22,490 bases of DNA from a virus, in the IMG/VR virus record IMGVR_UViG_3300025896_000197, positions 1-22,490 of that record; one strand, 5' to 3'. Position 1 is the first letter of the stretch. Every line of letters starts with the position of its first letter. A model generated the notes under the pieces. It saw only the letters and a list, made by a program, of their open reading frames with translations. It did not search any database and was not told the origin of the DNA. The position numbers and the translations under genes were made by a program. Below, one piece after another: positions 64-22,490 of this stretch.

Positions 64-184
64 AATAGAATTAATCGATGATGAATTGTGGGACCACTAT
101 AGTGGGTTGCCAAGTCCAATGTGGTATCAACAAATAAAAGAATCAGAAGAAAATCAAGAATCAGAAGAAAATGAAGATGAATAA
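56..184 (+). CDS. 42-aa acidic small protein
   Basis: This short ORF begins at ATG 56 behind an A-rich leader (AGAAAAAT) and ends at TAA 182-184. The product has a tryptophan-containing N-terminal half (ELWDHYSGLPSPMWYQQ) and a Glu/Asn tail in which ESEEN occurs twice, separated by one Gln. It overlaps both neighbours by 8 nt through ATGAATAA junctions, so it is probably translated in a coupled chain leading into thyA. I recognise no family. The overlaps and ordinary codon use support it as a real gene; the acidic tail is low complexity. Confidence 0.6.
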   Translation: MNKIELIDDELWDHYSGLPSPMWYQQIKESEENQESEENEDE

Positions 185-2407: not shown

Positions 2408-3277
2408 ATGAAAAACAATAAAATAAACCCAGTTGGCCTAAAAGGTAACGAAATTAATGAGCGTATGAAAGAATTGATGGGTATTTCATCTATCAATGAA
2501 AATCATTCAAACTCTGTTGTGGAATTAACTAAAGTTGGTCCAGACGGTAAATCTTATGCTATCGTAAGAGAAAACCACGAATACTATATCAAAGTAACAA
2601 ATAAAGTTTCTAGCATTTTAGCTGAAGACTTTAAATACATTGGTGGTTTACAAAACAAAAAATCAGAAGCTTATGGTTCATATGCTAAAGCAATCAAACA
2701 CTTAAATCTTAATTTTAAATCTTTGGCTGAAGCTTACGGACAAGGTGGAGATATCAACGTATTCAAAAATGATAACTTATTAACTGAAAATGTTGCTGGG
2801 TTCTCACAATATGGTGGTAATGGGTTTTCTAATGAAGGAAACATGGAACACAATACACCGTTATTCGAAGAGGAAGAACAAGAAGGTGAAGATAAAAACA
2901 ATCCCTGGGCTATCTGTACTGCAAGTGTTGGTAGAGAAGACAAAGCAAAATACGAAGCTTGTGTAAGAGACGTTAAGAAAGAAAAAGGTATTGATGAATC
3001 GGTTGAGGAAGAGGAAGATGAAAAATTAACTGAAGCTGAAGAAGCAATAGATGAAATGATTAAAAACCCAGGAAAATATACTGGAAACGATAAAGAAAAA
3101 TTAGGTATTGATGATGATGGTGATGGTGTTCCAAATGGTGCTGATAAAGACCCAAAAGACGGAGCTATCAAAGAATCTCACAAACTTTCAATAATTAGAG
3201 CTATGGAAAACATGGATTCAATCATTGATAGTTTAACTGAAGGGACTTTAAAAAAAAAAGTATACACTCTAAAGTAA
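2408..3277 (+). CDS. Modular acidic virion-type protein, N-terminal part of a split gene
   Basis: 289 aa from ATG 2408. Visible parts are an N-terminal globular region (about 1-125), a segment NPWAICTASVGREDKAKYEAC at about 165-185 (a short Cys-containing module I recall from other large-phage proteins), an acidic stretch at about 198-215, and an Asp-rich calcium-binding-like repeat (GIDDDGDGVPNGADKDPKDG, 233-252) of the thrombospondin type-3 kind. Candidate prohead-protease sites are INE31 and LTE127, both followed by Asn. The frame stops at 3275-3277 just after a ten-A run, while the -1 frame is open from 3241 and continues into the next ORF. The end KKKVYTLK would read smoothly into VNEETKYKLK if one base were added, so this is probably the first part of one protein of about 870 aa. 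Expected role: internal head or other virion protein. Confidence 0.75.
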   Translation: MKNNKINPVGLKGNEINERMKELMGISSINENHSNSVVELTKVGPDGKSYAIVRENHEYYIKVTNKVSSILAEDFKYIGGLQNKKSEAYGSYAKAIKHLNLNFKSLAEAYGQGGDINVFKNDNLLTENVAGFSQYGGNGFSNEGNMEHNTPLFEEEEQEGEDKNNPWAICTASVGREDKAKYEACVRDVKKEKGIDESVEEEEDEKLTEAEEAIDEMIKNPGKYTGNDKEKLGIDDDGDGVPNGADKDPKDGAIKESHKLSIIRAMENMDSIIDSLTEGTLKKKVYTLK

Positions 3278-7800: not shown

Positions 7801-9579
7801 ATGCTAACGACACACGAAATATTTAAAGAATATACGAAATGTCTGATGAATCCATCTTACGCTATTGAAACGTATTTGGAAACATTCGATAAAACGCAAG
7901 AGGGTTTTGTACCCTTTAAGTTATTTCCGAGACAAAAGGAAATTATTCTCGCTTACGAAAAACATAGATTTAATCTAGTAACTAAACCTAGACAGGCTGG
8001 TGTATCAACTACAACTGCTGCTTATATGTCAATCAAGGTCGGCTGGGCCGATGCTGACAATCCAGAAAACATTCTAATTATTGCGAATAAACAAGAACTT
8101 GCTTTTGAGTTCTTAGCCAAGATTAAAGATTTCTTATCTCAACTACCTAGATGGATTTGGGGTGATGAATATTACGGTAACGCAAAGAATGAAGCTAAAT
8201 CAATATTTATTACTGACTCTAAGAAAGAGATTAGACTTCCTAATGGTAGCCGTGTTAAAGCCGTTGCAACATCTAAAGATGCCTTGCGTGGATTTACACC
8301 TACTTACCTTATCATGGATGAGGCTGCCTATATCGATAACGGTGCCGAAGTATTTGGTGCCGCTCTTACCGCTTTAGGTACTGGGGGAAAAGCAACTCTT
8401 ATTTCAACACCTAAAGGTATGGATGCTTTGTACTACAAAACATACGACCAAGCTAAGAATGGTAAAAATAACTTTAATATCGTTGAAATGAAGTGGTATG
8501 AAGATTTACGTTACAATAAAGACTTACGATGGTTTAAAGGTGATGAGTTGGAAGTAGAAACTGAATTTACATTTGATTCTTACAATAGAAGACTAGATGA
8601 TGGTTGGAAACCGACTTCATCATGGTATGAAGAAATGTGCTTAGGTATGAACAACGATGCTAAGATGATTGCACAAGAGCTAGATGTATCTTTTATTGGG
8701 TCTGGTGGTAACGTAATCAACGAAGAACACATAGCTTTCCAAGAAAAAACAAACGTAATGAAACCATTATTAACTTATGGTGCAGAAGAAGAAATTTGGA
8801 TTTGGGACCAACCTAGAGAAGACCACCAATATATCATGGGTGTCGATGTATCTAGGGGTGATGGTGAAGATGCTTCTACAATCATTATACTAGACTTTAC
8901 AACGATGGAACAGGTTATGGAGTATCAAGGTAAGATACAACCAGATTTACTAGCTCAAATCGTAGAAGAATACGGTGAATTATATAAAGCTTATACTGTA
9001 GTCGATGTGACTGGTGGTATGGGTGTTTCGACAGTTTTAAAGTTACTTGAATTTGATTACAAATTACTTCACTATGACAATGCCAACGGTAAGATACTTT
9101 CAGCTAGACAAAGAGAATTAACGTCTTACGATAAAGACAATAAAATACCAGGGTTCCACGCTACAAGTGTACGTTTACCTATGATTTCAAACCTAGAATA
9201 TCAAATTAGAACCAATGGTGTTAAGATTCGTTCTTCTAGAATGGTATCAGAAATGAAAACATTTATTTACAAAAATGGTAGACCAGACCACATGGAAGGA
9301 TATCACGATGATTTACTTATGGCTATGGGTATGGCTTTATGGGTAATCGAACATGCTTTCAAAAAATTAGAAAGACTTGAAAAACAAAACAAAGCTATGT
9401 TGAATAGTTGGTTATCTAGTGCTAATTCAGCACAAGGTCCAGCGACTACAACATCAGTAGATACTGTTACTGGTAAAGAAGTAACGAAAATAAACCCACA
9501 ACATGTAGCGTACAAAAATGTTCAAGACCCTAGAGGTGAATATATGTGGTTATTTGGTGGGATGAATAAACAAAGATAG
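7801..9579 (+). CDS. terL: Terminase large subunit (gp17-like)
   Basis: This is the ATPase and nuclease that packages phage DNA into the prohead through the portal. ATG 7801 (MLTTHEIFKEY, 592 aa) is preferred over the in-frame ATG 7759, which lies upstream of the candidate promoter. The ATPase half has the Walker-A-like KPRQAGVST (62-70), Walker B YLIMDEAAY (169-177, Asp173-Glu174) and the coupling motif LISTPKG (200-206). The RNase-H-type nuclease half has acidic residues in GVDVSRGDG (Asp349), VDVTGGMG (Asp402) and YHDDLLMA (Asp503/504). The length is close to T4 gp17 (610 aa). The C-terminal 70 residues form a basic helix and a Ser/Thr/Ala linker. No small-subunit gene (gp16) is adjacent in this window. 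Confidence 0.97.
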   Translation: MLTTHEIFKEYTKCLMNPSYAIETYLETFDKTQEGFVPFKLFPRQKEIILAYEKHRFNLVTKPRQAGVSTTTAAYMSIKVGWADADNPENILIIANKQELAFEFLAKIKDFLSQLPRWIWGDEYYGNAKNEAKSIFITDSKKEIRLPNGSRVKAVATSKDALRGFTPTYLIMDEAAYIDNGAEVFGAALTALGTGGKATLISTPKGMDALYYKTYDQAKNGKNNFNIVEMKWYEDLRYNKDLRWFKGDELEVETEFTFDSYNRRLDDGWKPTSSWYEEMCLGMNNDAKMIAQELDVSFIGSGGNVINEEHIAFQEKTNVMKPLLTYGAEEEIWIWDQPREDHQYIMGVDVSRGDGEDASTIIILDFTTMEQVMEYQGKIQPDLLAQIVEEYGELYKAYTVVDVTGGMGVSTVLKLLEFDYKLLHYDNANGKILSARQRELTSYDKDNKIPGFHATSVRLPMISNLEYQIRTNGVKIRSSRMVSEMKTFIYKNGRPDHMEGYHDDLLMAMGMALWVIEHAFKKLERLEKQNKAMLNSWLSSANSAQGPATTTSVDTVTGKEVTKINPQHVAYKNVQDPRGEYMWLFGGMNKQR

Positions 9580-12750: not shown

Positions 12751-12990
12751 ATGAATACCATGAAAAGCGTTCCAAGTGATAACATTCTACAGTTAAGAGT
12801 ATTGACTGAAAAGATATGTTCACAAAACCCAGATAACTCTTATAAAGAAGTTGTCAAACAATTGAAAGAAATAGTTGATGTCGGTAAAGAGGAAATCGAT
12901 GAGGCAAAATCAACGAAAACTAAAATTAAATGTTATGAATCAATGTGCATAGCAGTAACTAACATATTAAATAAAATTAATATTAAATAA
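12751..12990 (+). CDS. Small helical protein, 79 aa
   Basis: The gene starts 13 bases after the previous stop (ATG 12751; ATG 12760 is an alternative) and ends one base before the next ATG. The product is helical with heptad-like spacing (LQLRVLTEKI, VVKQLKEIV) and two Cys. It has no recognised domain. Tight spacing puts it in one transcript with the 256-aa and coiled-coil genes. It could be a small head-core or accessory protein, by position only. Confidence 0.75.
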   Translation: MNTMKSVPSDNILQLRVLTEKICSQNPDNSYKEVVKQLKEIVDVGKEEIDEAKSTKTKIKCYESMCIAVTNILNKINIK

Positions 12991-12991
12991 A

Positions 12992-13333
12992 ATGGCAGAA
13001 GAAAAAGATAGTTGGGGAGATTACAGTAAGTTAGTTCTAAAAGAATTAGAACGTTTGAATGATAACCACGAAAAAATGCGTTCAGACTTTGATGGGAAGC
13101 TAAACGAAATGAACCTTAAATTAAATGATGTTAAAAGCATCGAAAAAAGTGTTAGCACTAATTCTGCATGGATTGATAAAGTGAATGAAGTTTGGTCACC
13201 TAGTCAAATGAAAGAGGCTAAAGATGAACTTTATAAACAAAAAACACTTGTGGCTACGGCTATTGGGATTCTAGCTTTTATCCAAATAGCTATTGGTATT
13301 GCCATTTCAATTTGGGGTAAATTTAGTCATTAA
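12992..13333 (+). CDS. Coiled-coil protein with C-terminal membrane anchor
   Basis: 113 aa with a charged helical N-terminal part (about 12-55, KLVLKELERLNDNHEKMRSD, likely coiled coil) and one membrane segment near the C-terminus (about 86-107, LVATAIGILAFIQIAIGIAI), leaving a tail of a few residues. This resembles the layout of XhlA-type phage lysis accessory proteins and of other tail-anchored coiled-coil proteins; no specific family can be assigned. ATG 12992 follows the previous stop by one base (TAAAATGG). Its presence in the head cluster is unexpected for a membrane protein; it might anchor the prohead assembly site to the inner membrane or take part in lysis. Confidence 0.8.
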   Translation: MAEEKDSWGDYSKLVLKELERLNDNHEKMRSDFDGKLNEMNLKLNDVKSIEKSVSTNSAWIDKVNEVWSPSQMKEAKDELYKQKTLVATAIGILAFIQIAIGIAISIWGKFSH

Positions 13334-13340
13334 CCTAGAT

Positions 13341-13370
13341 TTGACTTTCCTGGAAAAATGCGTATATTTG
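13341..13370 (+). promoter_or_regulatory. Host-type Bacteroidetes promoter
   Basis: TTG at 13341-13343 and TATATTTG at 13363-13370 fit the Bacteroidetes -33 TTG / -7 TAnnTTTG promoter with a 19-base spacer. The spacer contains the palindrome TTTCCTGGAAA (13346-13356). It serves the single gene at 13389 and differs from the ATATTTAT sites of the surrounding genes, suggesting host-polymerase, earlier expression. Confidence 0.75.
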
Positions 13371-13377
13371 TATTAAA

Positions 13378-13388
13378 ATACCAGGTAT
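13378..13388 (+). repeat. Palindrome at the transcription start, possible operator
   Basis: ATACCAGGTAT (5-bp arms, one-base centre) lies between the -7 box and ATG 13389, about where transcription should begin. Like the spacer palindrome at 13346 it has a CCWGG centre. A repressor site or a 5' mRNA hairpin are both possible. Confidence 0.35.
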
Positions 13389-13832
13389 ATGAAAACAGGA
13401 AAAGAAATTAAGAATAACAACTTCAAAAACTATAATGTAGTTTTTGGTAGTGTTAACAACAAAAACCCAAAAGCGGTTTATATTAATATCTCAGCATGGG
13501 CTGAACCGTTAGAGGAAGAAGGTGTGAATTATACTAGAAGTATAAAAGATATCAACAAGAAAATAAAAAATGTACTGTTTAGTCATTTTTATTCAGAGTC
13601 AGATAGTGATTTTGTTCGCAACGATACAATCGTTGACTTAGACATAAGGGAGTCTGGAATAAGATATGGCAAGCGTAGCTTTATGAATTGTGAGATTACT
13701 TTGTTCTTACATACTGAACTACCAGTAAACTCGGATAAGATGAGTTATAATTTAGATAGGATTACACCTATGGTTATTAAATCGGTATTTGATGAAAATA
13801 AAACATTCAAATTCCACAAGAAAAAAATATAA
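13389..13832 (+). CDS. Hypothetical protein with its own promoter, 147 aa
   Basis: The product starts MKTGKEIKNNNFKNYNVVFG and alternates beta-prone and charged segments (AVYINISAWAEPLEE, NDTIVDLDIRESGIRYGKRS, NCEITLFLHTELP), ending FHKKKI. It has one Cys, no signal peptide and no membrane segment. I recognise no domain. It forms a monocistronic unit with a host-type promoter and a strong terminator inside the late head cluster, which suggests a separate, earlier role than its neighbours, such as a host-interaction or regulatory protein. That role is inference from the control signals only. Confidence 0.8.
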   Translation: MKTGKEIKNNNFKNYNVVFGSVNNKNPKAVYINISAWAEPLEEEGVNYTRSIKDINKKIKNVLFSHFYSESDSDFVRNDTIVDLDIRESGIRYGKRSFMNCEITLFLHTELPVNSDKMSYNLDRITPMVIKSVFDENKTFKFHKKKI

Positions 13833-13845
13833 AATAATAAAATTT

Positions 13846-13877
13846 AAACCCTCGATAGTGATATTGGGGGTTTTTTT
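13846..13877 (+). terminator. Strong rho-independent terminator
   Basis: A 12-bp stem (AAACCCTCGATA / TATTGGGGGTTT, with two G-T pairs) is closed by a GTGA (GNRA-type) tetraloop and followed by a T-tract at 13871-13877, 13 bases after the stop at 13832. Confidence 0.92.
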
Positions 13878-13887
13878 ATTTATTGTC

Positions 13888-13897
13888 GATATTTATA
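13888..13897 (+). promoter_or_regulatory. Candidate late promoter for the prohead protease
   Basis: CGATATTTATAT, with TATTTAT at 13890-13896, lies directly after the terminator and 19 bases before ATG 13916. It matches the shared motif. Confidence 0.55.
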
Positions 13898-13909
13898 TCT
13901 ATATAGATA
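13896..13909 (+). repeat. Perfect 14-bp palindrome upstream of gp21
   Basis: TATCTATATAGATA starts on the last base of the TATTTAT motif and ends 6 bases before the ATG. It could be a protein-binding site or the 5' end of the mRNA. It has no loop, so a stable hairpin would need some unpairing. Confidence 0.4.
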
Positions 13910-13915
13910 GCAAAC

Positions 13916-14641
13916 ATGGACATAAATTATAAAGACTTTAGAGTATTAAAACGTGGTGAAAGCGGTTGGGGTGGGTTAATCGAGCATGATGCTGGGTTTA
14001 TTAGCCCAGAAGAACCTAGAAATCAACCATTTATTAACGAAATTAAAAAACTAGATACTGGTGGGAAACTAGCAATAGTTGAACCACTTATAGTTTACGT
14101 GGTATTACAGAAATACGGTATCCTTAATCGTAATGGTAGAATCTATCCAGAAGCTATCCTTAAACATCAAGACAGATTATATCAAGAAGCAATACGTGAA
14201 CGTAGAGCTGTAGGTGAATTAGACCACCCAGAGTCTTCAATTATTGCTGGTGATAGAATATCACACAATATCGTTGAAACATGGTGGGAAGGTCACACAC
14301 TTATGGGTAAGATGGAAATCTTAATGACACCTGGTTTTATTAACCTAGGTATTGTTTCAACCAAAGGTGATGAAGTTGCTAACCTTTTGAGAAATAGAAT
14401 TAAGATTGGTGTATCTTCTAGAGGTGTTGGTTCACTTAAAGAAGGTAAAAATGGTGAACAAATTGTTCAAGATGATTTCGAGATTATTTGTTGGGATGTT
14501 GTTACCGCACCATCTACTCCAGATGCATGGATTGGAAGAAATAGAGAAGAGATGGCACCATATGTTGAAAACGTAGAAATTAAAAAACCAATATTAAAAG
14601 AAAACCTACTAAATAATTTAGATAAATTTTTATCTGAATAG
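13916..14641 (+). CDS. gp21: Prohead core serine protease (gp21-like)
   Basis: This protease is expected to be built into the prohead core and to cleave scaffold, capsid and internal proteins after (I/L)xE during head maturation. The 241-aa protein shows the gp21-type motifs: LNRNGRIYPE (70-79), ELDHP with the probable catalytic His104, GKMEIL (131-136), IGVSSRGVGS with the probable catalytic Ser at 167 or 168 (164-173), and DVVTAPSTPDA (194-204). The length is close to T4 gp21 (212 aa). The C-terminal tail (ILKENLLNNLDKFLSE) contains LKE and LSE and may be self-cleaved. The gene order protease-scaffold-capsid is as in T4. Confidence 0.93.
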   Translation: MDINYKDFRVLKRGESGWGGLIEHDAGFISPEEPRNQPFINEIKKLDTGGKLAIVEPLIVYVVLQKYGILNRNGRIYPEAILKHQDRLYQEAIRERRAVGELDHPESSIIAGDRISHNIVETWWEGHTLMGKMEILMTPGFINLGIVSTKGDEVANLLRNRIKIGVSSRGVGSLKEGKNGEQIVQDDFEIICWDVVTAPSTPDAWIGRNREEMAPYVENVEIKKPILKENLLNNLDKFLSE

Positions 14642-14692
14642 TAATTTTTTTTTAATTTTTTTATGGTTAAAATGATTTTTGATAAAATTACA

Positions 14693-14703
14693 CATATTTA
14701 TTA
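14693..14703 (+). promoter_or_regulatory. Candidate late promoter for scaffold and capsid
   Basis: ACATATTTATTAAC includes TATTTAT at 14695-14701. It lies 68 bases before the scaffold ATG, so these genes would have the longest leader among the + strand sites. The 128-base gap 14642-14769 otherwise holds only A/T-rich sequence and the stem-loop at 14707. Confidence 0.5.
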
Positions 14704-14706
14704 ACA

Positions 14707-14723
14707 AATGAGTATATCTCATT
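14707..14723 (+). promoter_or_regulatory. 5' leader stem-loop of the scaffold/capsid transcript
   Basis: AATGAG and CTCATT form a perfect 6-bp stem with loop TATAT, starting 5 bases after the late motif. At that place it would sit at the very 5' end of the mRNA, where stem-loops can protect transcripts from decay. Confidence 0.4.
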
Positions 14724-14769
14724 GTTTATTTAATTGAAATAAAATAAATAAAAAAAACAAAAAACTAAA

Positions 14770-15987
14770 ATGGCAGAAAACAAATCAATACTTGAAGAAG
14801 CATTATTGGATATCAAAAATATTCAAAGTGCTCTTAATGCTAACACAAAAGAAATACTTCGTAGCGTAGCTAAAGAAGAAATTGACAGTGTAGTGAAAGA
14901 ATCTCTAGTTAAAGAGATTTATGAAGAAGAAGACTTAGAAGCACCAGAAGAATTAGACTTGGATACAATGTCTGATGAAGAAGGTACGGAAGATGATTCA
15001 ATCGAAGGTGGCTTAGGCGACATGGAAGACTCTGAAGAAGTGGCACCAGAAATGGAACCAGAATTAGGAATGGACGTTGATACGTTAGGTGGAGAAGAAA
15101 TGGATATGACCGCAGCATCTGATGATGACGTAATCGCAATTTACAAAAAATTAAGTGGCGAAGACGAAATCGAAATCGTGGGTGACGAAATTCACTTGAA
15201 CATCTCAGAACCAGGTGAGTACGTTGTAAAATTAGATGGTAAAACACCAGAAGCGGGAGCTGAGGATTTAGATTTGGATACAGCCGAAATGGGTGGAGAA
15301 GATGAAGAAGGTTCAGAAGACGATGTGGAGTATGAAATCGAAATGGATGACGAAGAAGAAGGAAGTGATATTCCAGATGACTTAGTACCTGTTGGTGATG
15401 AAGAAGGTGAAGAAGAAGAAGCAGAGGAAGAAGAAGAAGTTGAAGAACTAGACGAAAAATTAGTTATCGGTTTAGCTCAAAACGGAAAATCTTATTCTGA
15501 TTTGACAAAAACTGGCGGTGCTGGTAAAATCAAAACTGAATCTATCGCAGCAAAAAAATTAGTTTCTGAAACAACTAAAAAATATAACAGTTTATTAACT
15601 GAAGCAACTAAACTAAAAGCTGAAAATGACGAGTTCAGAACTGCTCTTAGAGAATTTAGAAGCAAATTAGTTGAAACTGTAGTGTTCAATAGTAATCTTA
15701 CTTATGTAACTAGATTATTAACAGAGCATTCAACTACAAAAGCTGAGAAACAAAATATCATCAAAAGATTTGATGGAGAAGTTTCTAACCTTGTAGAATC
15801 AAAAAAACTTTACAAAACTATTTCTAACGAATTGGATTCAAGAAAACCAATTAACGAATCAGTAGAACGTAAAATTATTAAAGAAGCATCTACTAGTACT
15901 TCAAAACAATTAAACGAAAGTACAGCATATGTCGACCCTTCAACAAAAAGAATCATTGATTTGATGAACAGAGTTGAAAAAAGATAA
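14770..15987 (+). CDS. gp22: Prohead scaffold/core protein (gp22-like)
   Basis: The main prohead core protein is expected to be copolymerised with capsid subunits and then degraded by the protease. The 405-aa product is extremely acidic between about residues 50 and 235 (long Glu/Asp runs with EEDDVEYEIE-type text). A helical, Lys-rich C-terminal half (about 255-405) contains coiled-coil-like NSLLTEATKLKAENDEFRTA, followed by many (I/L)xE sites (LTE, INE, LNE, VKE). T4 gp22 is 269 aa and also acidic and helical. Identification rests on composition and on its place between gp21 and gp23, since scaffold sequences are poorly conserved. ATG 14770 follows an A-rich leader (AAAACTAAA). Confidence 0.88.
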   Translation: MAENKSILEEALLDIKNIQSALNANTKEILRSVAKEEIDSVVKESLVKEIYEEEDLEAPEELDLDTMSDEEGTEDDSIEGGLGDMEDSEEVAPEMEPELGMDVDTLGGEEMDMTAASDDDVIAIYKKLSGEDEIEIVGDEIHLNISEPGEYVVKLDGKTPEAGAEDLDLDTAEMGGEDEEGSEDDVEYEIEMDDEEEGSDIPDDLVPVGDEEGEEEEAEEEEEVEELDEKLVIGLAQNGKSYSDLTKTGGAGKIKTESIAAKKLVSETTKKYNSLLTEATKLKAENDEFRTALREFRSKLVETVVFNSNLTYVTRLLTEHSTTKAEKQNIIKRFDGEVSNLVESKKLYKTISNELDSRKPINESVERKIIKEASTSTSKQLNESTAYVDPSTKRIIDLMNRVEKR

Positions 15988-16021
15988 AATAAAATAACCC
16001 AAAAAATAAAACAAACAAATT

Positions 16022-17062
16022 ATGTCACATTTATTAACATCTGGACAGGTTGGAAATATCGGATTAAACCACATGAAGGCTATCCGTAAAGAAACACAAT
16101 CTAAATGGGATTCATTAGGATTCCTAGACGGTCTAAAAGGACACGTTAAAGAAAACATCGCTCAGTTATATGAAAACCAAGCGTCTACATTATTAACTGA
16201 AAACACTACTACTAACTCTTCTGGTTCTTTCGAAACAGTTGTATTCCCAATTGTACGTAGAGTATTCTCTAAATTATTAGCTAACGATATCGTATCTGTA
16301 CAAGCTATGAACATGCCAATTGGTAAATTGTTCTTCTTCGTTCCAGTTACATCTCAACGTGTTGACGCTGCTGGTTTACCAGGTTCTGACTACGCTGCTA
16401 ATGGTGGTAACGGTGCTTACGGTCTTACTTACTCTGCTCACACAGCTATGAACGGTGGTGTTCCATCTTGTATCAACCAAGCTAATTGTGCAGTAACTTC
16501 ATTCGCTGGAAAAAATCTTTACGATGCATTCTACAATGACGGTTTATTTGATAACTCTAAAGGTACTCTTACTATCCAACCTGGTGTTAACGCTGTTTTC
16601 ACTTTAGGACTTGATGGTAACTACACAATCGCTACAGGAAGTATGTCTGCTGGACCTACTGCAACTGACGGTTCATTAAGAGGTATTATCTTAGGAATTT
16701 CTGGTTTCTCTGCTGGTGTAACAACTGGTGGTAGAGAAGTTATGACAGGTGCTGATGGTAACAACATGGATACTGAGTCATTCTTAGCTTCATTACACGT
16801 TATTAACTCTGCTGTAACAGGTATCTTAGACCGTGACGGTAACACAATTATCGCTGCTGGTAAAGAAATCCCTTTCAGATTAGTTACTCAACAATATGGT
16901 AAAGGAATTGTTTCTGGTTCAAAAGCATTGACTGATGGTACTGGTACACTTTACTTAGAATTAGACTTACGTCACCCAGTAGGAACTACAGCTAATGGTC
17001 TGGTAACACTCCTGGTACTGCAACTTATGATGGTTATGTTGGTGCTTCTGCAACTACTGTAA
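16022..17062 (+). CDS. gp23: Major capsid protein (gp23-like), N-terminal part of a frame-broken gene
   Basis: This ORF carries residues 1-326 of the major capsid protein, up to HPVGTTANG, after which its frame runs into unrelated Leu-rich text and stops at 17060-17062. The N-terminal propeptide ends at LTE60, followed by NTTTNSSGSF and the gp23-type stretch FPIVRRVFSKLLANDIVSVQAMNMPIGKLF (about 75-104). T4 gp23 is cut after Glu65 at the equivalent place. The body is rich in Gly, Thr and Ala with NNT/NNA codons typical of a highly expressed gene in this genome. Restoring one base near 16997-17000 joins it to the next ORF as a 614-aa protein (T4 gp23 is 521 aa). The start MSHLLTSGQVG lies 34 bases after the scaffold stop, without a promoter motif of its own. 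Confidence 0.93.
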   Translation: MSHLLTSGQVGNIGLNHMKAIRKETQSKWDSLGFLDGLKGHVKENIAQLYENQASTLLTENTTTNSSGSFETVVFPIVRRVFSKLLANDIVSVQAMNMPIGKLFFFVPVTSQRVDAAGLPGSDYAANGGNGAYGLTYSAHTAMNGGVPSCINQANCAVTSFAGKNLYDAFYNDGLFDNSKGTLTIQPGVNAVFTLGLDGNYTIATGSMSAGPTATDGSLRGIILGISGFSAGVTTGGREVMTGADGNNMDTESFLASLHVINSAVTGILDRDGNTIIAAGKEIPFRLVTQQYGKGIVSGSKALTDGTGTLYLELDLRHPVGTTANGLVTLLVLQLMMVMLVLLQLL

Positions 17063-17121
17063 CAGCGTTCACATTTGCATCTGCATGGGCTGAATACGCA
17101 ACATTAGAGCTTGAAACTGAA

Positions 17122-17865
17122 ATGGGAGAAGTATCTTTCAAATTAGACGAAGTTGTTGTTGCTGTTGAAGAAAGAAAATTACGTGCTACTTGGTCTCCAG
17201 AGCTTGCTCAAGACGTTAGTGCATTCCACAACATTGATGCAGAAGCTGAATTAACAGCTATGTTATCTGAACAAGTTGCTGCTGAGATTGACCGTGAAAT
17301 CCTTAGAGATATCCGTAAAGCTGCTGCATGGCAATTGAGATGGGATTACAATGGTTGGAGAAAAGCTTCTTCTGCTGCAAGTCCATACACTCAAAAAGAC
17401 TGGAACCAAACTTTAATCACTAGATTAAACCAAGTTTCTGCTCAAATACACAAATCTACTCTTAGAGGTGGTGCTAACTTTATCGTAGTTTCTTCTGAAA
17501 TCTCAGCTATCTTTGATGATTTAGAATACTTCCACGTAAGTGATGCTAACCCAGAGCAAGACCAATACAACATGGGTATTGAAAGAATCGGTTCATTAAG
17601 TGGACGTTACCAAGTGTACCGTGACCCTTATGCTCCAGCTTACTCAGTAATCATCGGACACAAAGGTAAATCATTACTTGATACTGGTTATATCTATGCA
17701 CCATACGTTCCATTACAATTAACTCCAACAATGTACAACCCATTCAACTTTGCTCCAGTTAAAGGTATTATGACACGTTACGCTAAAAAAGTTGTTAATA
17801 ACAGATTCTACGGTCACGTAAGAGTTGATGGTATTCCAACATTTGATATCAACGAATTAAGATAA
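17122..17865 (+). CDS. gp23: Major capsid protein (gp23-like), C-terminal part of a frame-broken gene
   Basis: This is the -1 frame continuation of the capsid gene. ATG 17122 is an internal Met; coding text is clear back to about 16999 (SGNTPGTATYDGYVGA, then FASAWAEYATLELETEMGE), and a stop at 16993-16995 limits it upstream. Typical gp23 C-terminal features follow: MGEVSFKLDEVVVAVEERKLRATW, SPELAQDVSAFHNIDAEAEL, EQVAAEIDREILRDI, FIVVSSEISAIFD and the end YGHVRVDGIPTFDINELR. Without the N-terminal part this could not build a head, so the two ORFs must be one gene in the living phage. No start signal suggests independent translation. A terminator follows 18 bases after the stop. Confidence 0.9.
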   Translation: MGEVSFKLDEVVVAVEERKLRATWSPELAQDVSAFHNIDAEAELTAMLSEQVAAEIDREILRDIRKAAAWQLRWDYNGWRKASSAASPYTQKDWNQTLITRLNQVSAQIHKSTLRGGANFIVVSSEISAIFDDLEYFHVSDANPEQDQYNMGIERIGSLSGRYQVYRDPYAPAYSVIIGHKGKSLLDTGYIYAPYVPLQLTPTMYNPFNFAPVKGIMTRYAKKVVNNRFYGHVRVDGIPTFDINELR

Positions 17866-17883
17866 TCATAATCTTTATAAATT

Positions 17884-17913
17884 AAAAAAGGCTACCTAAC
17901 GGTGGTCTTTTTT
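17884..17913 (+). terminator. Rho-independent terminator after the capsid gene
   Basis: A 13-bp stem (AAAAAAGGCTACC / GGTGGTCTTTTTT with two G-T pairs, loop TAAC) ends in six T, 18 bases after the capsid stop. It separates the head genes from the nuclease unit. Confidence 0.9.
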
Positions 17914-17922
17914 GTTTATATA

Positions 17923-17932
17923 GATATTTATA
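17923..17932 (+). promoter_or_regulatory. Candidate late promoter for the nuclease/CAP unit
   Basis: GATATTTATA (TATTTAT at 17925-17931) ends only 4 bases before ATG 17936. If it acts as a -10/-7 element, transcription would start at or near the start codon and the mRNA would be almost leaderless. Confidence 0.45.
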
Positions 17933-17935
17933 GGT

Positions 17936-18580
17936 ATGAAGAAAATATTTTTAATCATAGCTGTTTTATTTACAATAAATACTATATCTCAAACCGTTAC
18001 TACTGGTAACAAACTTATAATCAACCACGGAGATATTACATTATACCTAACTAAAGACACCTGTACACTAGCATCTAAACACACTATTTCTTATTCTAAT
18101 TTTTTAAAGTTGGATAAAGAAAGAGATAATCGTTGGTTCCAAGATACGTACAAAGGGAAATACAAAAAAGAATTATTTTTACACACTGGTTATGACCTAG
18201 GTCATTTGACACCTTCTCACATAACTTCTTACGATAATGACTTAAATCATCAGTCTTTTAGCTTATTTAATCAAGCTCCACAATTAGCACCCTTCAATAG
18301 AGGCAAATGGGCCCAATTAGAGGCAAGTGTTCAAGATTCGATATCCAAGTACCAACATGATGCTATTATCATCACAGGAGTCATTTATGAAGGTCAAAAA
18401 AAACAATATTTACCAAAAAGTAAGATTCCGATACCTATTTCATATTTTAAAATACTATATATTGACAAACTTAGATATTGTTGGGTTGGTTCAAATATTA
18501 ATGGTGAGATAATACCAATAACACTAAAAGAGTTAAATGAATTGTTTCGATTAAATAAAATGACACTAAAAATAGATTAA
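17936..18580 (+). CDS. Secreted DNA/RNA non-specific endonuclease
   Basis: 214 aa with an N-terminal signal peptide (MKKIFLIIAVLFTINTISQ, probable cut near 19-20) and the core of the DNA/RNA non-specific endonuclease (beta-beta-alpha-metal) family. HTGYDLGHLTPS (83-94) holds the catalytic His90; SLFNQAPQLAPFNRGKWAQLE (109-129) holds the metal-ligand Asn region (Asn112 or Asn121), Trp125 and Glu129; TGVIYEG and PIPISYFKILYID follow as usual. The family motif is DRGH; here the Arg is Leu88. The product should act outside the cytoplasm, in the periplasm or beyond. It is followed after two bases by the CAP lipoprotein gene and shares its promoter. Possible roles are destroying DNA injected by competing phages or scavenging nucleotides. 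Confidence 0.93.
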   Translation: MKKIFLIIAVLFTINTISQTVTTGNKLIINHGDITLYLTKDTCTLASKHTISYSNFLKLDKERDNRWFQDTYKGKYKKELFLHTGYDLGHLTPSHITSYDNDLNHQSFSLFNQAPQLAPFNRGKWAQLEASVQDSISKYQHDAIIITGVIYEGQKKQYLPKSKIPIPISYFKILYIDKLRYCWVGSNINGEIIPITLKELNELFRLNKMTLKID

Positions 18581-18582
18581 TT

Positions 18583-19032
18583 ATGAAAAAGATATTTGCT
18601 TACTTATTATTTATAATAATATTAACAACATGTGATGAGAAATCAAGTATCAGTGTTTATACCCCTAATAGTAACATTACTTTATCCCCTAACGAACATG
18701 TTTTAGATTCTTTGATAAATAATTATAGAGTTCAACATAATCTTCAAGAATTAAAGATAGATTCTTTAACAACAAGATTAGCTATTGGCCATGTACTGTA
18801 TATGATTGATAAGGGTGTTCCATCACACGATGGTTTCAATACTAGAGCAAACCTAAGCCATGCTAAATATATGGGTGAAATAGTTGCTTATAATTATAGT
18901 TCATCAGCTTCAATATTAGCAGCTTATTTAGCTTCACCACCACATAAAGCAGTGTTAGACAATCCAAAATTTACACATATAGGAATTTCAACAATCGAAA
19001 ATTATAATTGTTGTATCCTTACAGCATATTAA
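18583..19032 (+). CDS. CAP-domain (SCP/PR1-like) lipoprotein
   Basis: 149 aa with a lipoprotein signal: MKKIFAYLLFIIILTTC has the lipobox LTTC with Cys17. The following DEKSS is acidic/polar, like lipoprotein export signals that send Bacteroidetes lipoproteins to the cell surface. The CAP domain follows: LINNYRVQHNLQELKID (44-60), LAIGH (His70), SHDGF (His82), MGE (Glu99), SPPHKAVLDNPKFTHIGIS (His121). These are the His/Glu positions that line the CAP cavity. The domain is compact and ends soon after THIGIS. The biochemical role of bacterial CAP proteins is mostly unclear. Being co-transcribed with a secreted nuclease suggests a joint role in the envelope of the infected cell. Confidence 0.9.
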   Translation: MKKIFAYLLFIIILTTCDEKSSISVYTPNSNITLSPNEHVLDSLINNYRVQHNLQELKIDSLTTRLAIGHVLYMIDKGVPSHDGFNTRANLSHAKYMGEIVAYNYSSSASILAAYLASPPHKAVLDNPKFTHIGISTIENYNCCILTAY

Positions 19033-19034
19033 AT

Positions 19035-19066
19035 AAAAAAGCCGAAGACTATCCTCGGCTTTTTTT
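19035..19066. terminator. Bidirectional terminator between convergent genes
   Basis: An 11-bp stem (AAAAAAGCCGA / TCGGCTTTTTT, nine-base loop) has A- and T-runs on both sides, so it can end transcripts from the CAP gene (+) and from the zinc-ribbon gene (-, ending at 19091). Confidence 0.92.
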
Positions 19067-19090
19067 ATTACGTTAACTCTTGTAATTTAT

Positions 19091-19369
19091 TTAGGCTTTT
19101 GTACCACAGCTAGAACAGAATTTATCTGTCTTACCTAATTTAGCACCACAGTTCGTACAATATCTTTTTACATTGATGTCTTCAGCTGTGTTAATTTTTT
19201 GAGATACTGGAAGCATCTTACACTCGATAGTGTGGAAAGCAAAGTATTCAAAATCTTTATTGGTTGTTTTAAATTTTTGGTCAGAATCTGAACCTTGTTC
19301 AACTCTACCAGTTTCAATTGATTTTGATTTTTTTGCAGAACGAAGTATTCCACCTTTAGGTGCTGACAA
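19091..19369 (-). CDS. Zinc-ribbon C-terminal part of a frame-broken gene
   Basis: This frame encodes SAPKGGILRSAKKSKSIETG, a beta-type region (KTTNKDFEYFAFHTIECKML) and a C-terminal zinc ribbon with paired CxxC motifs: YCTNCGAKLGK then FCSSCGTKA. The only possible start of its own is TTG 19367-19369, with no supporting signal. A stop (TAG, 19376-19378) bounds the frame upstream. It therefore reads best as the end of the protein begun at 20004, reached by a -1 shift between 19375 and about 19327. Joined, the protein would be about 304 aa with an N-terminal beta domain, Gly/Ser/Thr linker and zinc ribbon. Confidence 0.75.
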   Translation of the reverse strand: MSAPKGGILRSAKKSKSIETGRVEQGSDSDQKFKTTNKDFEYFAFHTIECKMLPVSQKINTAEDINVKRYCTNCGAKLGKTDKFCSSCGTKA

Positions 19370-20004
19370 TAAGAGCTAAGAGCATCTGTCGTTACGCTTG
19401 ATGAAAAGCTGCCACTACAATTAGTTATGTTAGCATTATAATAAGCAGTAGAAGTTGTTCCAATTAGTCCATTGGTTGATAGTGTTGAGCACACCGCAGT
19501 TGGTACGTTGGTTGAAAGTGTTGTATGTGCGTATCCACCACCATAAGTACCGCTACCATAATTTGGTCCACCAAAAGAACCACCATAAGAACCACCAATA
19601 CTTAAATTAGAGGGTATAAAACGTACTGGTAATTGTTCTTTAAAGAATTCAACTTTAAAATCACCATTTTTTTCTATGGCTTTTTTAGTTTCTTCAGAAT
19701 TTGATACTTCATAGGTATCAAATAAGAATTTCTTAGCTACGTCTAAATAACGGTCTAAAAATACTCTTTGGCCAGGTTTTAAAACCAAACCACCTTGAGA
19801 GATTGCTGTGTTGTTAAGGAAAATTTTTGCTAATACAGTTCCTTGAGTCGGATTGTATAATTCAATTTGGAACTCTTGTCCTTTTTGAAGATAGTAAGTT
19901 GGCATGTCGCCATCATTTTCGTAGATTTTAATTCTACTTTTGTTTACAGCAATGTTAGCTGTTGGAACCGCTTTTGACGGTTCAGTGATAAATTGTTTTT
20001 TCAT
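19168..20004 (-). CDS. N-terminal part of a frame-broken zinc-ribbon protein
   Basis: The N-terminal 140 residues (MKKQFITEPSKAVPTANIAV onward) form a well-behaved beta domain with LYNPTQGTVLAKIFLNNTAI, GLVLKPGQRVFLDRYLD and KKFLFDTYEV. I recall this pattern from conserved proteins of large viruses and phages, but I know no function. A Gly/Tyr/Ser linker (GGSYGGSFGGPNYGSGTYGGG) and a Ser/Thr-rich segment with the repeat TLSTN follow. After about residue 210 the text (SYCQHLKVEYFVLQKNQNQLK) has poor codon use, and the better frame is -1, leading to the zinc ribbon; the last 65 residues are probably not real. It is expressed from a host-type promoter with a leader of about 100 bases. Confidence 0.8.
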   Translation of the reverse strand: MKKQFITEPSKAVPTANIAVNKSRIKIYENDGDMPTYYLQKGQEFQIELYNPTQGTVLAKIFLNNTAISQGGLVLKPGQRVFLDRYLDVAKKFLFDTYEVSNSEETKKAIEKNGDFKVEFFKEQLPVRFIPSNLSIGGSYGGSFGGPNYGSGTYGGGYAHTTLSTNVPTAVCSTLSTNGLIGTTSTAYYNANITNCSGSFSSSVTTDALSSYCQHLKVEYFVLQKNQNQLKLVELNKVQILTKNLKQPIKILNTLLSTLSSVRCFQYLKKLTQLKTSM

Positions 20005-20090
20005 TTTGTTTAACTTTTAATGTTTGTTATTAGTGTACTAATACCTTTGTTTATTTCTAAACTCTAAACCGTTTTAATGGTCGGGACTAA

Positions 20091-20107
20091 TACGTTGAGT
20101 TAACGTA
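20091..20107 (-). promoter_or_regulatory. 5' leader stem-loop
   Basis: TACGTT and AACGTA form a perfect 6-bp stem around a five-base loop. On the minus strand it lies directly after the -7 box, so it would be at or near the 5' end of the mRNA of the zinc-ribbon gene. The rest of the leader (20005-20090) shows only ATTAGT/ACTAAT (20029-20042) as a further inverted repeat. Confidence 0.4.
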
Positions 20108-20141
20108 AATATAAATATACGACAAATGTTTTATTTGTCAA
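20106..20141 (-). promoter_or_regulatory. Host-type promoter overlapping a late motif
   Basis: Reading the minus strand, TTG (20141-20139) and TATATTTA (20119-20112) are 19 bases apart, the same spacing as the promoter at 13341, and both -7 boxes are preceded by CG. The -7 box departs from TAnnTTTG only in the last base. ATATTTAT (20118-20111), the late motif, overlaps it, so the gene may be transcribed both early and late. Confidence 0.65.
20121..20139 (-). repeat. Palindrome filling the promoter spacer, possible operator
   Basis: GACAAAT and ATTTGTC are perfect 7-bp arms around five bases. The palindrome reaches from the -33 TTG to one base before the -7 box, a classic place for a repressor to block polymerase. 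As RNA it lies upstream of the start, so a terminator role for the gene at 20161 is less likely and no T-tract follows. Confidence 0.5.
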
Positions 20142-20160
20142 GTGTTTTTTTTAAAATAAT

Positions 20161-20499
20161 TTATTGAAAGTCTGAACCCATCTCACAAAGTGTTGATTGA
20201 ATTTGAGTCCAATACGTGTCAGCCTCATCTGGCATTGAGTCTCCAGACATATGAGCTGTTTTAACTTCATCGGTAATTTTATTTTGTTCGTTCTTTAAAT
20301 TTTCTAAAGGTGCGTGAATTTTTTGCATAACACGTGTTCTAGTTTCTGGGCTAACACCTTTCAAAGCTCGTTCAACATTTTCCAACGCTTCAGAATAACT
20401 ACCGATAGTCATTTTATTACACGCATATTGGGTACCATGGTTCATGTTTTGACCGTCAATCATTTGTTCTCTAAGTAATCTTTTTATAAAACTTTTCAT
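20161..20499 (-). CDS. Small protein, 112 aa
   Basis: The gene starts three bases after the stop of the 464-aa gene and is surely co-transcribed with it. The N-terminus MKSFIKRLLREQM is a basic amphipathic helix like the leading helices of other phage virion-associated proteins. Then come two helical segments (SEALENVERALKG, RVMQKIHAPLENLKNEQNKI) and a C-terminus with an acidic patch and a Cys. No domain or enzyme motif is recognised. A structural or chaperone role beside its large neighbour is possible. Confidence 0.78.
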   Translation of the reverse strand: MKSFIKRLLREQMIDGQNMNHGTQYACNKMTIGSYSEALENVERALKGVSPETRTRVMQKIHAPLENLKNEQNKITDEVKTAHMSGDSMPDEADTYWTQIQSTLCEMGSDFQ

Positions 20500-20502
20500 A
20501 AT

Positions 20503-21897
20503 TTATCTTAATTCCACTTGGTTGACGATATCGAATTGAATCGCTCTTTTTATTGTTGTTACTTCTAAATTAGATGTAACCAATACGTCTAAATAATAAG
20601 TGTTTGAAACAAGACTAGCCGTATCTAATAAGAAATAGTAATTATTGATTGCCATCTCAACTGGTTGGAAATCAATTACGGTTAATTCACTAGAACCTTC
20701 CGAAACATAAAGTCTATATTTTAAACCACTAATTGCTTGTGATTGTTCAATAGTATAAGGTATTCTAGCCGAAACCAATACCTTGCGAATATCACCACGT
20801 TTTATCTTCTCTTTGTTTTGTAAACCAGAAATTGATACCGCAACTTTTTTAGGTAATGAATCACCGTTGCTTAAATCATAATAACCCATAGAATCTTTAG
20901 TAACAAAATCCATAGAAATATCTGGTCTAACAACACCATTGATGCTGATATTTGTCCACACATCATTATACATAACACCTTCGTTACCAGATGTTGGTAC
21001 GAGGATATCAATTGAGTAAACACCTTTAGTTACATGATTGACTTGTGATGGTGAATAATTCATAAATAAATTACCACTAGCATCGTAAACATCTACACTA
21101 GGGATATAATCCAAATTAGTAGGGTTTCCAGCAAGATTAACATAAAGGTATAACTTGTTAGGTTTATCTAAGAAAAAGTTGTTTCTATCGTCTGTAATGT
21201 GGTTATCATAAATAGATTCCACAAATGGTTCATAGAATGTTTGTGTATTGTTTGTAAAGAATCCAACGTATTGAAGACTAGTAGTATTCATTTGTTCAAA
21301 TGGTCTAGCATACGCAATACCTAAACCGTAATTATCGTCACCATTAAGAACACCGTTAACATAAGCGGTTATATCCATTTCGATATTTTCGTTTCCTTTA
21401 TCAAAATGTTGTGTTGATACTGTGATACCAGATGGTGAACCAGAATACGTTCCAGTACCGTTAGCCCATTCAATACCTGTTTGTGCATTAACCCAATTAG
21501 AAACTCCATTGCTAAATGCAGCGTCACCATAGGCTAATATTGGGATTTCATAATCATACCCAACACCATTGTCCCATGGCTGTTCTATTTTAAATACAAT
21601 TAAATCAAAAGAAGTTGTTCTAGATTTTGACCCCATGTTAGTATTTAAAAGTTCCTTATCAAAGGAACCAGTATTTGTAAGTCTAAGTGTGTGTTTAAGT
21701 TTACTCAAATCAGTAAATGTACCATCATTATACATAGCTTTTAATCTAGTTTCATCGAAATGAAATAAGAATCTACTGTATTGTTGTTGACCGATAGCAC
21801 CACCGTAAAACAATTCAGTAACTGGGTTTAATCCAGTGTTGACGTTTAGGTTGCTAACGATTGTGTTGTTCTTGTCAAAATATGTGCGTATTACCAT
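20503..21897 (-). CDS. Probable virion structural protein, 464 aa
   Basis: The protein is rich in Asn, Thr, Ser, Gly and Tyr and looks all-beta. The first about 200 residues (MVIRTYFDKNNTIVSNLNVN, SRFLFHFDETRLKAMY, LKHTLRLTNTGSFDKE, MDITAYVNGVL) follow the order seen in carbohydrate-module-like (DNRLRE/CBM96-type) domains: nonpolar lead strand, FxFD strand, then helix and ITxYVNxxL. The C-terminal half has repeated immunoglobulin-like beta text (NKLYLYVNLAG, VYSIDILVPTSGNEGVMY, YYLDVLVTSNLEVTTIKRA). No signal peptide. This fits an external virion or tail-associated protein, but the exact part cannot be named. A late motif lies 13 bases before the ATG. Confidence 0.85.
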   Translation of the reverse strand: MVIRTYFDKNNTIVSNLNVNTGLNPVTELFYGGAIGQQQYSRFLFHFDETRLKAMYNDGTFTDLSKLKHTLRLTNTGSFDKELLNTNMGSKSRTTSFDLIVFKIEQPWDNGVGYDYEIPILAYGDAAFSNGVSNWVNAQTGIEWANGTGTYSGSPSGITVSTQHFDKGNENIEMDITAYVNGVLNGDDNYGLGIAYARPFEQMNTTSLQYVGFFTNNTQTFYEPFVESIYDNHITDDRNNFFLDKPNKLYLYVNLAGNPTNLDYIPSVDVYDASGNLFMNYSPSQVNHVTKGVYSIDILVPTSGNEGVMYNDVWTNISINGVVRPDISMDFVTKDSMGYYDLSNGDSLPKKVAVSISGLQNKEKIKRGDIRKVLVSARIPYTIEQSQAISGLKYRLYVSEGSSELTVIDFQPVEMAINNYYFLLDTASLVSNTYYLDVLVTSNLEVTTIKRAIQFDIVNQVELR

Positions 21898-21906
21898 CTT
21901 ATCTTT

Positions 21907-21920
21907 TTATATAAATATCT
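21907..21920 (-). promoter_or_regulatory. Candidate late promoter for the 464-aa gene
   Basis: On the minus strand AGATATTTATATAA (motif TATTTAT at 21917-21911) lies in the 30-base gap between the two genes. Nineteen bases, TTAGATATTTATATAAAAA, are identical to the site upstream of ATG 2408. Confidence 0.6.
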
Positions 21921-21927
21921 AAAAAGA

Positions 21928-22490
21928 TTAATTAATTCGAATGTTTTTAGATAACATTGATTTTTCTAAATCGTCAGCTTTTGCTTTAAATGCGGCCAAT
22001 GGTTGTTTGTTACCAGAAGCTGTTAAATCTGTAGCTGGATTACCGCTACCATTATGAACGTGAGCGAATAAGGCTTCTTTCAAAAGCTTTAAATATTCAA
22101 TCAATACATCACCGAAAGGTAATTGGTGTGCTTCATTTAGGATTCTATCCATCTCATCTGTAGATATAAGACTTTCTTGACCAGTAACGTTGAATCTTGG
22201 CGTACCGTCTTTATGAGTGATTAAATTTATTTTATTAGAAACAATTGTGGTTATTGTACCAAAAGCACTATCTAGATTTGAACCACCATTAAAATTTTTA
22301 AGTAATTCATCAGTACTATAAATTTGAACGTCATTTTGTATTTGAATGTATCCTTGCGTTTTAGTGTTGAATTGAAATGGATATGGATTTTGAAATGATT
22401 TTGGTGATGATTCAAATTTACCAGCTCTAATAACAATTTCGTTAACTTTTTGTGTAATATCTGTATTATATCTACCTTGAATTGAGATAT
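21928..22490 (-). CDS. C-terminal part of a virion-type protein (partial)
   Basis: The frame is open from the window edge (first whole codon at 22488) to the stop at 21928, giving 186 residues; the gene starts outside the window, and ATG 22152 is internal. The text includes DITQKVNEIVIRAGKFESSP, PYPFQFNTK, YIQIQNDVQIYS, IVSNKINLITHKDG, then a helical C-terminal region (DRILNEAHQLPFGDVLIEYL) and HVHNGSGNPATDL, ending SKNIRIN. The last part resembles C-terminal regions of structural proteins in large T4-like phages, from memory only. It is in the same direction as the 464-aa gene, which has its own late motif. Confidence 0.82.
   Translation of the reverse strand, partial: ISIQGRYNTDITQKVNEIVIRAGKFESSPKSFQNPYPFQFNTKTQGYIQIQNDVQIYSTDELLKNFNGGSNLDSAFGTITTIVSNKINLITHKDGTPRFNVTGQESLISTDEMDRILNEAHQLPFGDVLIEYLKLLKEALFAHVHNGSGNPATDLTASGNKQPLAAFKAKADDLEKSMLSKNIRIN

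Follow-up and report, generated by a model that had tools for sequence, protein, structure and literature searches.

Gene content of the locus

The window (the whole stretch of viral DNA analyzed here, 22,490 nt) is a fragment of a T4-like phage: profile searches and the ORF list reveal terminase, portal, prohead protease and capsid genes, with a convergent set of minus-strand genes. Its source is a large virus, probably with a Bacteroidetes host. The two parts of the major capsid protein gp23 match PF07068 of Pfam (E 1.2e-59 and 9.2e-9). Of the cultured phages listed, Flavobacterium phage immuto (41.2% over 96%) and Microcystis phage Mel-JY01 (42.3% over 91%) come closest to the C-terminal part. 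The gp23 gene occupies two frames in the window (16022-17865); in relatives, the convergent gene (19091-20004 in the window) has its C-terminal part in another frame. These splits are perhaps sequencing or assembly errors.

An earlier note on this DNA took the two genes after the capsid gene, for an exported nuclease and a CAP-domain lipoprotein, as a co-transcribed pair and a possible cassette for superinfection exclusion. Both ORFs are indeed present, with 2 nt between them, and they come next after the capsid gene. That adjacency need not mean read-through, because a terminator-like hairpin and a promoter-like motif lie between the capsid and nuclease genes (Table 1).

Table 1. Features of the locus (window coordinates)
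Feature	Position	Strand	Remarks
GATATTTAT sites	2368, 13888, 17923, 21919		upstream of ORF 2408-3277, gp21, the nuclease gene and ORF 20503-21897 (- strand), respectively
gp23, N-terminal part	ORF 16022-17062	+	frame other than that of 17122-17865
T4-type major capsid protein gp23, C-terminal part	17122-17865	+	left border of variable slot
Intrinsic-terminator-like hairpin	17883-17914	+	capsid gene/nuclease gap; 14-pair stem and T run
Promoter-like motif GATATTTATA	17923-17932	+	begins 13 nt 5' of nuclease start codon
Exported non-specific nuclease	17936-18580	+	214 aa; PF01223, alignments, fold match
Nuclease signal peptide	residues 1-18		predicted mature N-terminus Gln19
Nuclease candidate catalytic residues	His90 18203-18205; Asn121 18296-18298; Glu129 18320-18322	+
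CAP-domain protein	18583-19032	+	149 aa; N-terminal signal; lipobox-like Cys17 (18631-18633)
Terminator-like hairpin	19035-19065		between nuclease-CAP unit and - strand tail-side genes; 14-pair stem
Convergent gene	19168-20004	-	right border of variable slot; homologs 3' of nuclease in relatives

Nuclease family and active site

The first gene encodes a Serratia/EndoG-type non-specific nuclease by its Pfam profile (PF01223, Endonuclease_NS; E 2.1e-24, 86.8 bits against a cut-off of 23), and its N-terminus is a hydrophobic signal, so the identification originally made from the ORF stands. A wider scan gave 46 loci which, with the window and after merging identical proteins, reduce to 35 distinct sequences (one, L095, is a truncated copy of the L128 protein). 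An alignment of 15 homologs shows no variation at His90, Asn121 and Glu129, and these residues align with NucA too; we take the histidine to be the general base and the other two to be metal-binding. The histidine lies in a DxGH motif in all 35 sequences, and the NxxxWxxxE block is found in 34, the exception (L159) being cut by a contig end. The arginine of the textbook DRGH motif is replaced throughout (DLGH, DIGH, DMGH or DKGH), and nuclease activity may therefore be reduced or altered; since the nucleases of phages K64-1 (DKGH), immuto (DKGH) and XaC1 (DMGH) likewise do without it, we do not treat this arginine as strictly defining for the family.

The predicted structure (pLDDT 64.6, pTM 0.67) is poor over residues 64-120, mostly below 50, a segment that holds His90. 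Its best fold matches are all of the beta-beta-alpha-metal fold: CPS-6 (EndoG) with Z 13.0, NucA with 12.7 and Serratia nuclease with 12.5. Both Serratia marcescens nuclease and Anabaena NucA are exported, as the window nuclease appears to be. The likeness thus covers Pfam profile, fold and the conserved His, Asn and Glu, while identity to the three in the fold alignments listed is 11-17%, the DRGH arginine is replaced, and the window protein is shorter and phage-encoded. Purifying selection is evident (dN/dS 0.06-0.22 in seven nuclease pairs; for the window and its sister contig L082, 0.16 by NG86 and 0.18 by a second estimator). Enzymatic activity is predicted on DNA, and maybe on RNA.

No NCBIfam model matched the nuclease, and the PADLOC defence-system library matched neither it nor the CAP protein. 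Two pattern-limited scans of 84,980 genomes, which relatives outside the patterns could escape, confirmed no bacterial relatives of this nuclease subfamily.

Probable export of the nuclease and its occurrence in other phages

In Bacteroidetes most signal-peptidase-I products start with Gln, the 'Q-rule' as described in PMC5837995. The nuclease follows this Sec/SPI pattern: all 34 sequences whose N-terminus is intact have Gln right after the signal peptide (the 35th, L139, is without its start). That regularity is good support for export in a Bacteroidetes host. A hydropathy test for the signal was passed by 32 of the 34, with L141 falling just below the threshold and L153 having a Glu in the core; the background for this test is 23 passing ORFs among 371 (at least 100 aa, 23 loci), nine of which are the nuclease and one a CAP gene. 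The fold match reaches the last residue, so a type IX sorting domain would not fit; the predicted location is the periplasm.

Related nucleases appear in 39 records by tblastn, of which nine from other phage records were read, unannotated gut fragments being left out. The nuclease of the Acinetobacter 'phage' MD-2021a was set aside, as its record appears to be chromosomal (kup and rhtB neighbours). A signal peptide is found in seven of eight: those of YerA41 and its near twin GN1, K64-1, XaC1, immuto, Phosso and CJIE4-3; in the eighth, from a Helicobacter prophage, the annotated start is not ATG. The nuclease of K64-1, which like RaK2 is a Klebsiella phage, is annotated 'periplasmic DNA/RNA non-specific endonuclease'. 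The K64-1/RaK2, XaC1, YerA41/GN1, Phosso and immuto enzymes resemble the window nuclease in having a signal peptide and in belonging to phages of Gram-negative hosts, the relationship being one of tblastn and annotation only. They differ in lacking a capsid gene in the inspected flanks, and they are distant: where found, they are 27-35% identical to the window protein over 42-57% of its length. Those of immuto and Phosso turned up only when the L009-contig nuclease served as query. Another Endonuclease_NS nuclease is encoded on the L009 contig; at its N-terminus is a signal-like stretch whose last residue is Cys. In immuto (L111:1917-3507), the gene next to that for the exported EndoG-type nuclease encodes an exported C-type lectin protein.

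The enzyme is thus very probably exported, and its substrate would be DNA, as the earlier note had reasoned, or RNA outside the cytoplasm. Exported phage nucleases are already known and the window nuclease is an additional case. No other argument for the usefulness of an exported nuclease to phages is as strong as this recurrence.

The variable slot behind the capsid gene

The set of genes between gp23 and the convergent genes varies widely among relatives. The nuclease is behind gp23 in 24 of the 35 distinct sequences, while the other 11 have no gp23 match in the fetched flank; near some of these 11, an ORF reads as NusG-like or dCMP-deaminase-like. One nuclease without a gp23 match in the fetched stretch belongs to a very large phage contig (L135, 596,785 bases). 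Viewed from the slot, the nuclease occupies 14 of 57 non-redundant loci having both borders, a set that leaves out 14 loci judged redundant and loci lacking both borders; 13 of the 14 are represented by loci fetched via the nuclease and the 14th is the window, while fetching via the capsid gene gave 3 of 46 among the matches listed. The whole capsid-gene fetch, of at least 80 loci, had the nuclease in 3 and a CAP gene in none among the matches listed.

Comparison with the sister contig is consistent with a mosaic history. Identity between the window and L082 falls from 99.6% in the capsid part to 81% in the nuclease and 67% in the CAP protein, and synonymous divergence is 0.02 for the capsid part, 0.21 for gp21, 0.66 for the nuclease and 0.88 for CAP. 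Because the tail-side gene D464 has also diverged (0.56), mosaic exchange of the whole right side and a separate history of the nuclease-CAP unit fit equally well. Distances among nucleases correlate best with those of D464 (Mantel r 0.55, 11 loci), then gp21 (0.28, 12 loci) and capsid (0.24, 13 loci), and gp21 correlates with D464 at 0.32; as these values are moderate to weak, that between gp21 and D464 included, nuclease, gp21, capsid and D464 all seem to have mosaic histories. The nuclease occurs in differing neighbourhoods and is best read as a mobile phage gene. In L084 and L093, a stretch of about 1.1 kb that may be an intron or a homing element splits the prohead protease match of gp21 at residue 107.

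Other cargo in the slot has its own peculiarities. (i) Leaders of the MKKLIKKLLRE type begin 15 of 102 slot genes, compared with 18 of 1221 internal control windows; by a looser test, the numbers are 64 of 102 slot genes and 18-29 of 93-102 controls. (ii) T4 head-targeting sequences end in LxE and are cut by gp21; leaders ending in LxE near gp23 were seen in L082:7459-7998, L087:6935-7957, L088:7238-7999 and 8646-9167, L091:8647-9099, L097:7288-7767 and the window at 20161-20499 (minus strand). (iii) A slot gene with a head-targeting-like leader (L100:6058-6876) matches the ART-PolyVal ADP-ribosyltransferase family (E 1.7e-10), recalling T4 Alt, a packaged ADP-ribosyltransferase. (iv) The slot gene L009:9701-10951 encodes a metallopeptidase of the M43 type that is exported; its match to a type IX secretion tail stays under the Pfam cut-off.

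These leaders bear on whether the nuclease too might be carried in or on the particle and act at the start of the next infection. Such a role is conceivable because the YerA41 homolog is annotated as phage-particle-associated (the proteomics is described in PMC7354516), and slot neighbours do have leaders resembling head-targeting sequences. However, what the nuclease carries at its own N-terminus is a Sec signal and Q-rule site and no head-targeting-like leader, and co-purification of a periplasmic protein would account for the YerA41 result; we consider a virion-associated nuclease highly unlikely.

Transcription of the nuclease and CAP genes

From its sequence features, the nuclease-CAP pair is a putative transcription unit with its own promoter-like motif and terminator-like hairpins on both flanks. 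The scan lists the downstream hairpin on the minus strand, and a T run is also visible on the plus strand. Since positions 12900-22490 hold 7 such sites, compared with 4.4 (sd 2.1) in shuffles, each hairpin is suggestive only.

The motif GATATTTAT is associated with gene starts. All four of its occurrences in the window lie 13-40 nt upstream of a gene start on the same strand. Among 51 sites in 20 relatives, 40 are intergenic with a same-strand gene start within 150 nt downstream, while 10 lie within genes and have no such start; the same reading applied to controls gave 1 of 51 for the reverse complement and 3 of 80 for six permuted motifs pooled. Spacings form two peaks, one at 13 nt (slot genes) and one at 20-28 nt (mainly tail-side and head genes). 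The motif is strand-specific, and at the 13 nt spacing the transcript might be nearly leaderless. A sigma-70 promoter scan found no excess (38 observed, 43.4 in shuffles).

We infer that GATATTTAT is a phage promoter of a late class. As it also precedes the prohead-protease gene gp21 and tail-side genes, the nuclease unit is probably expressed late, together with virion genes; the timing here is read from the genes that the motif precedes. An exact motif stands within 45 nt upstream of the nuclease in 12 of the 35 sequences, all in the gp23 slot, whereas none of the 11 without gp23 has it and half of the gp23-slot copies lack it, so timing may differ among phages.

Probable late expression bears on two further uses of the enzyme. 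A periplasmic nuclease could degrade the host DNA that is freed with the virions at lysis, cutting viscosity and virion trapping. This would agree with a motif that head genes and tail-side genes have as well; lysis would set free an enzyme that is soluble and exported, and no partner is required. Set against this are the 11 nucleases of 35 with neither gp23 nor motif nearby, some with a NusG-like or dCMP-deaminase-like neighbour (by reading) that suggests other timing. Lysis clean-up is a genuine possibility without being the outcome we expect. Nucleotide scavenging, in which breakdown of extracellular DNA would supply phage replication, might draw on the thymidylate-synthase-like gene read in the window (171-1388), but the motif is of late type and the products would need dephosphorylation and uptake, with no transport gene recognised when reading the ORF list. 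We regard scavenging as extremely unlikely, and rejected it on account of the late-type motif and the need for dephosphorylation and uptake.

The CAP protein

The second gene has the CAP domain claimed for it (PF00188, E 4.3e-11, 44.1 bits with a Pfam cut-off of 21.1; 37.1 bits for the L082 ortholog). In alignments to 4ifa and the L082 ortholog, His82, Glu99 and His121 are kept, presumably the residues of the CAP pocket. The gene is under purifying selection between window and L082 (NG86 dN/dS 0.30; the second estimator gave no value). A two-sequence structure model was too poor for a fold search (pLDDT 43, pTM 0.36).

The residue before a lipobox Cys is usually Gly, Ala or Ser. Cys17 is conserved in the window and L082, preceded by Thr in both, and the protein scores 14.8 bits with LPAM_1, the Pfam lipoprotein-site model, whose cut-off is 20; for these two reasons its lipoprotein status is likely, not certain. 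The proposal that DEKSS after the Cys is a surface-export signal does not hold up. The Capnocytophaga signal has two acidic residues after a positive or polar one, best C-X-K-(D/E)2, and in Flavobacterium johnsoniae the consensus is SDDFE, with SDDDD also a comparison signal, as given in PMC5080379; window C-DEKSS and L082 C-SKEHV fit none of these. With no match to a published export signal in either ortholog, a periplasm-facing lipoprotein is as likely as a surface one, and nothing in the analysis supports the suggested receptor blocking.

CAP relatives are few. A Pfam search of 45 relatives' records found matches in two, L082 and G027, and in G027 the gene is far from the capsid gene, with a signal-like stretch ending in Gln that begins at an internal Met of the ORF. 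We found no CAP homologs in phage records by tblastn, and in IMG/VR back-translated patterns found none at first and then the sister contig only. Matches to the NCBIfam YkwD and DalA models are far below their cut-offs (DalA 21 bits, cut-off 200); DalA, a Rhodobacterales outer-membrane lipoprotein to which the likeness is thus weak, is described as binding peptidoglycan and associating with the divisome (PMC10470522). Bacillus phage Stills is reported to encode a secreted CAP protein of unknown role (PMC4541274).

In the cassette of the earlier note, the nuclease would cut incoming phage DNA while the CAP lipoprotein blocks surface receptors. The two genes are adjacent, both proteins have export signals, and the pair recurs in the sister contig. 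But that contig and the window are the only 2 of the 35 distinct nuclease sequences that a CAP gene adjoins, close to the lack of conservation which the note itself named as contrary to its proposal; it is the nuclease alone that recurs. Given this adjacency and the few CAP homologs in relatives, one of them far from gp23, the pair is not a conserved system. The missing published surface-export signal counts against the cassette as well, as does a motif common to virion genes, which points to late expression rather than to classical superinfection exclusion. We judge the two-gene cassette very unlikely.

Function of the nuclease

The explanation that we favor, and hold to be somewhat better than an even bet, has a one-gene core: a phage-borne, Sec-exported periplasmic nuclease that degrades extracytoplasmic DNA, serving as a barrier or at lysis. 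Expressed with virion genes from the variable slot behind gp23, under its own promoter-like motif and terminators, the enzyme would be exported by Sec and mature in the periplasm of the Bacteroidetes host, where it would degrade DNA, perhaps also RNA, outside the cytoplasm. Later in the infection its targets may be DNA brought into the periplasm by competing phages or by transformation; after the cell bursts, it may degrade DNA in the lysate. The CAP protein would be a rare envelope protein, probably a lipoprotein, in the same transcript and no obligate partner of the nuclease.

A barrier to DNA entering the periplasm has, we estimate, not far short of an even chance of being the role, slightly ahead of lysis clean-up alone. 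Three cases favor it. Periplasmic endonuclease I degrades superinfecting DNA in cells infected with T4. Reports on the Campylobacter CJIE1, CJIE2 and CJIE4 prophage nucleases, one of which is of the kind of the window nuclease, state that they prevent natural transformation (PMC10893306, PMC3995785). The CJIE4 enzyme (nucA/dns3) is likewise phage-borne, has a signal peptide and is related by tblastn and annotation, while the phage is temperate, the benefit lysogenic, the host of another phylum, and no capsid gene precedes the nuclease in the inspected flank. The third case is SNIPE, described as a nuclease bound to the membrane and cutting phage DNA as it is injected (PMC13190303). Its likeness is one of principle, an envelope nuclease meeting DNA on entry; SNIPE has a cytoplasmic-side GIY-YIG domain, is a bacterial defence gene and is described as associating with host entry proteins and the tape-measure protein.

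Superinfection exclusion is a plausible function, though not as a two-gene system. The exclusion genes imm and sp of T4 are early genes, and the nuclease differs from imm in that its motif suggests late expression. Imm and Sp are phage-made envelope proteins acting on incoming phage (PMC9311878), with Imm described as blocking DNA passage and Sp as inhibiting the tail lysozyme; unlike the window protein, neither is a nuclease. The T4-type Imm family PF14373 matched none of 27 records, and as the control also matched none, this is uninformative.

A more specific picture, which we hold to be doubtful, is of a 'DNA moat': a T4-like Bacteroidetes phage lineage would keep interchangeable late cargo behind its capsid gene, much of it with head-targeting-like leaders and packaged, the nuclease with a Sec signal and exported, and its periplasmic nuclease would cut up the genomes of competitors that arrive late.

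Exported nucleases turn up repeatedly in phages whose hosts belong to several phyla, and in the titles and abstract openings of the papers listed by our literature searches we found no test of a phage-encoded exported nuclease against superinfection. This subfamily offers a clean test case, being a small single gene with a strong export signature and mutable catalytic residues, and having close relatives with and without the nuclease. If the enzyme does protect the infected cell, it would be a simple mechanism of phage-phage exclusion; if its task is to clear DNA from the lysate, it would show how virions get free of DNA-rich debris.
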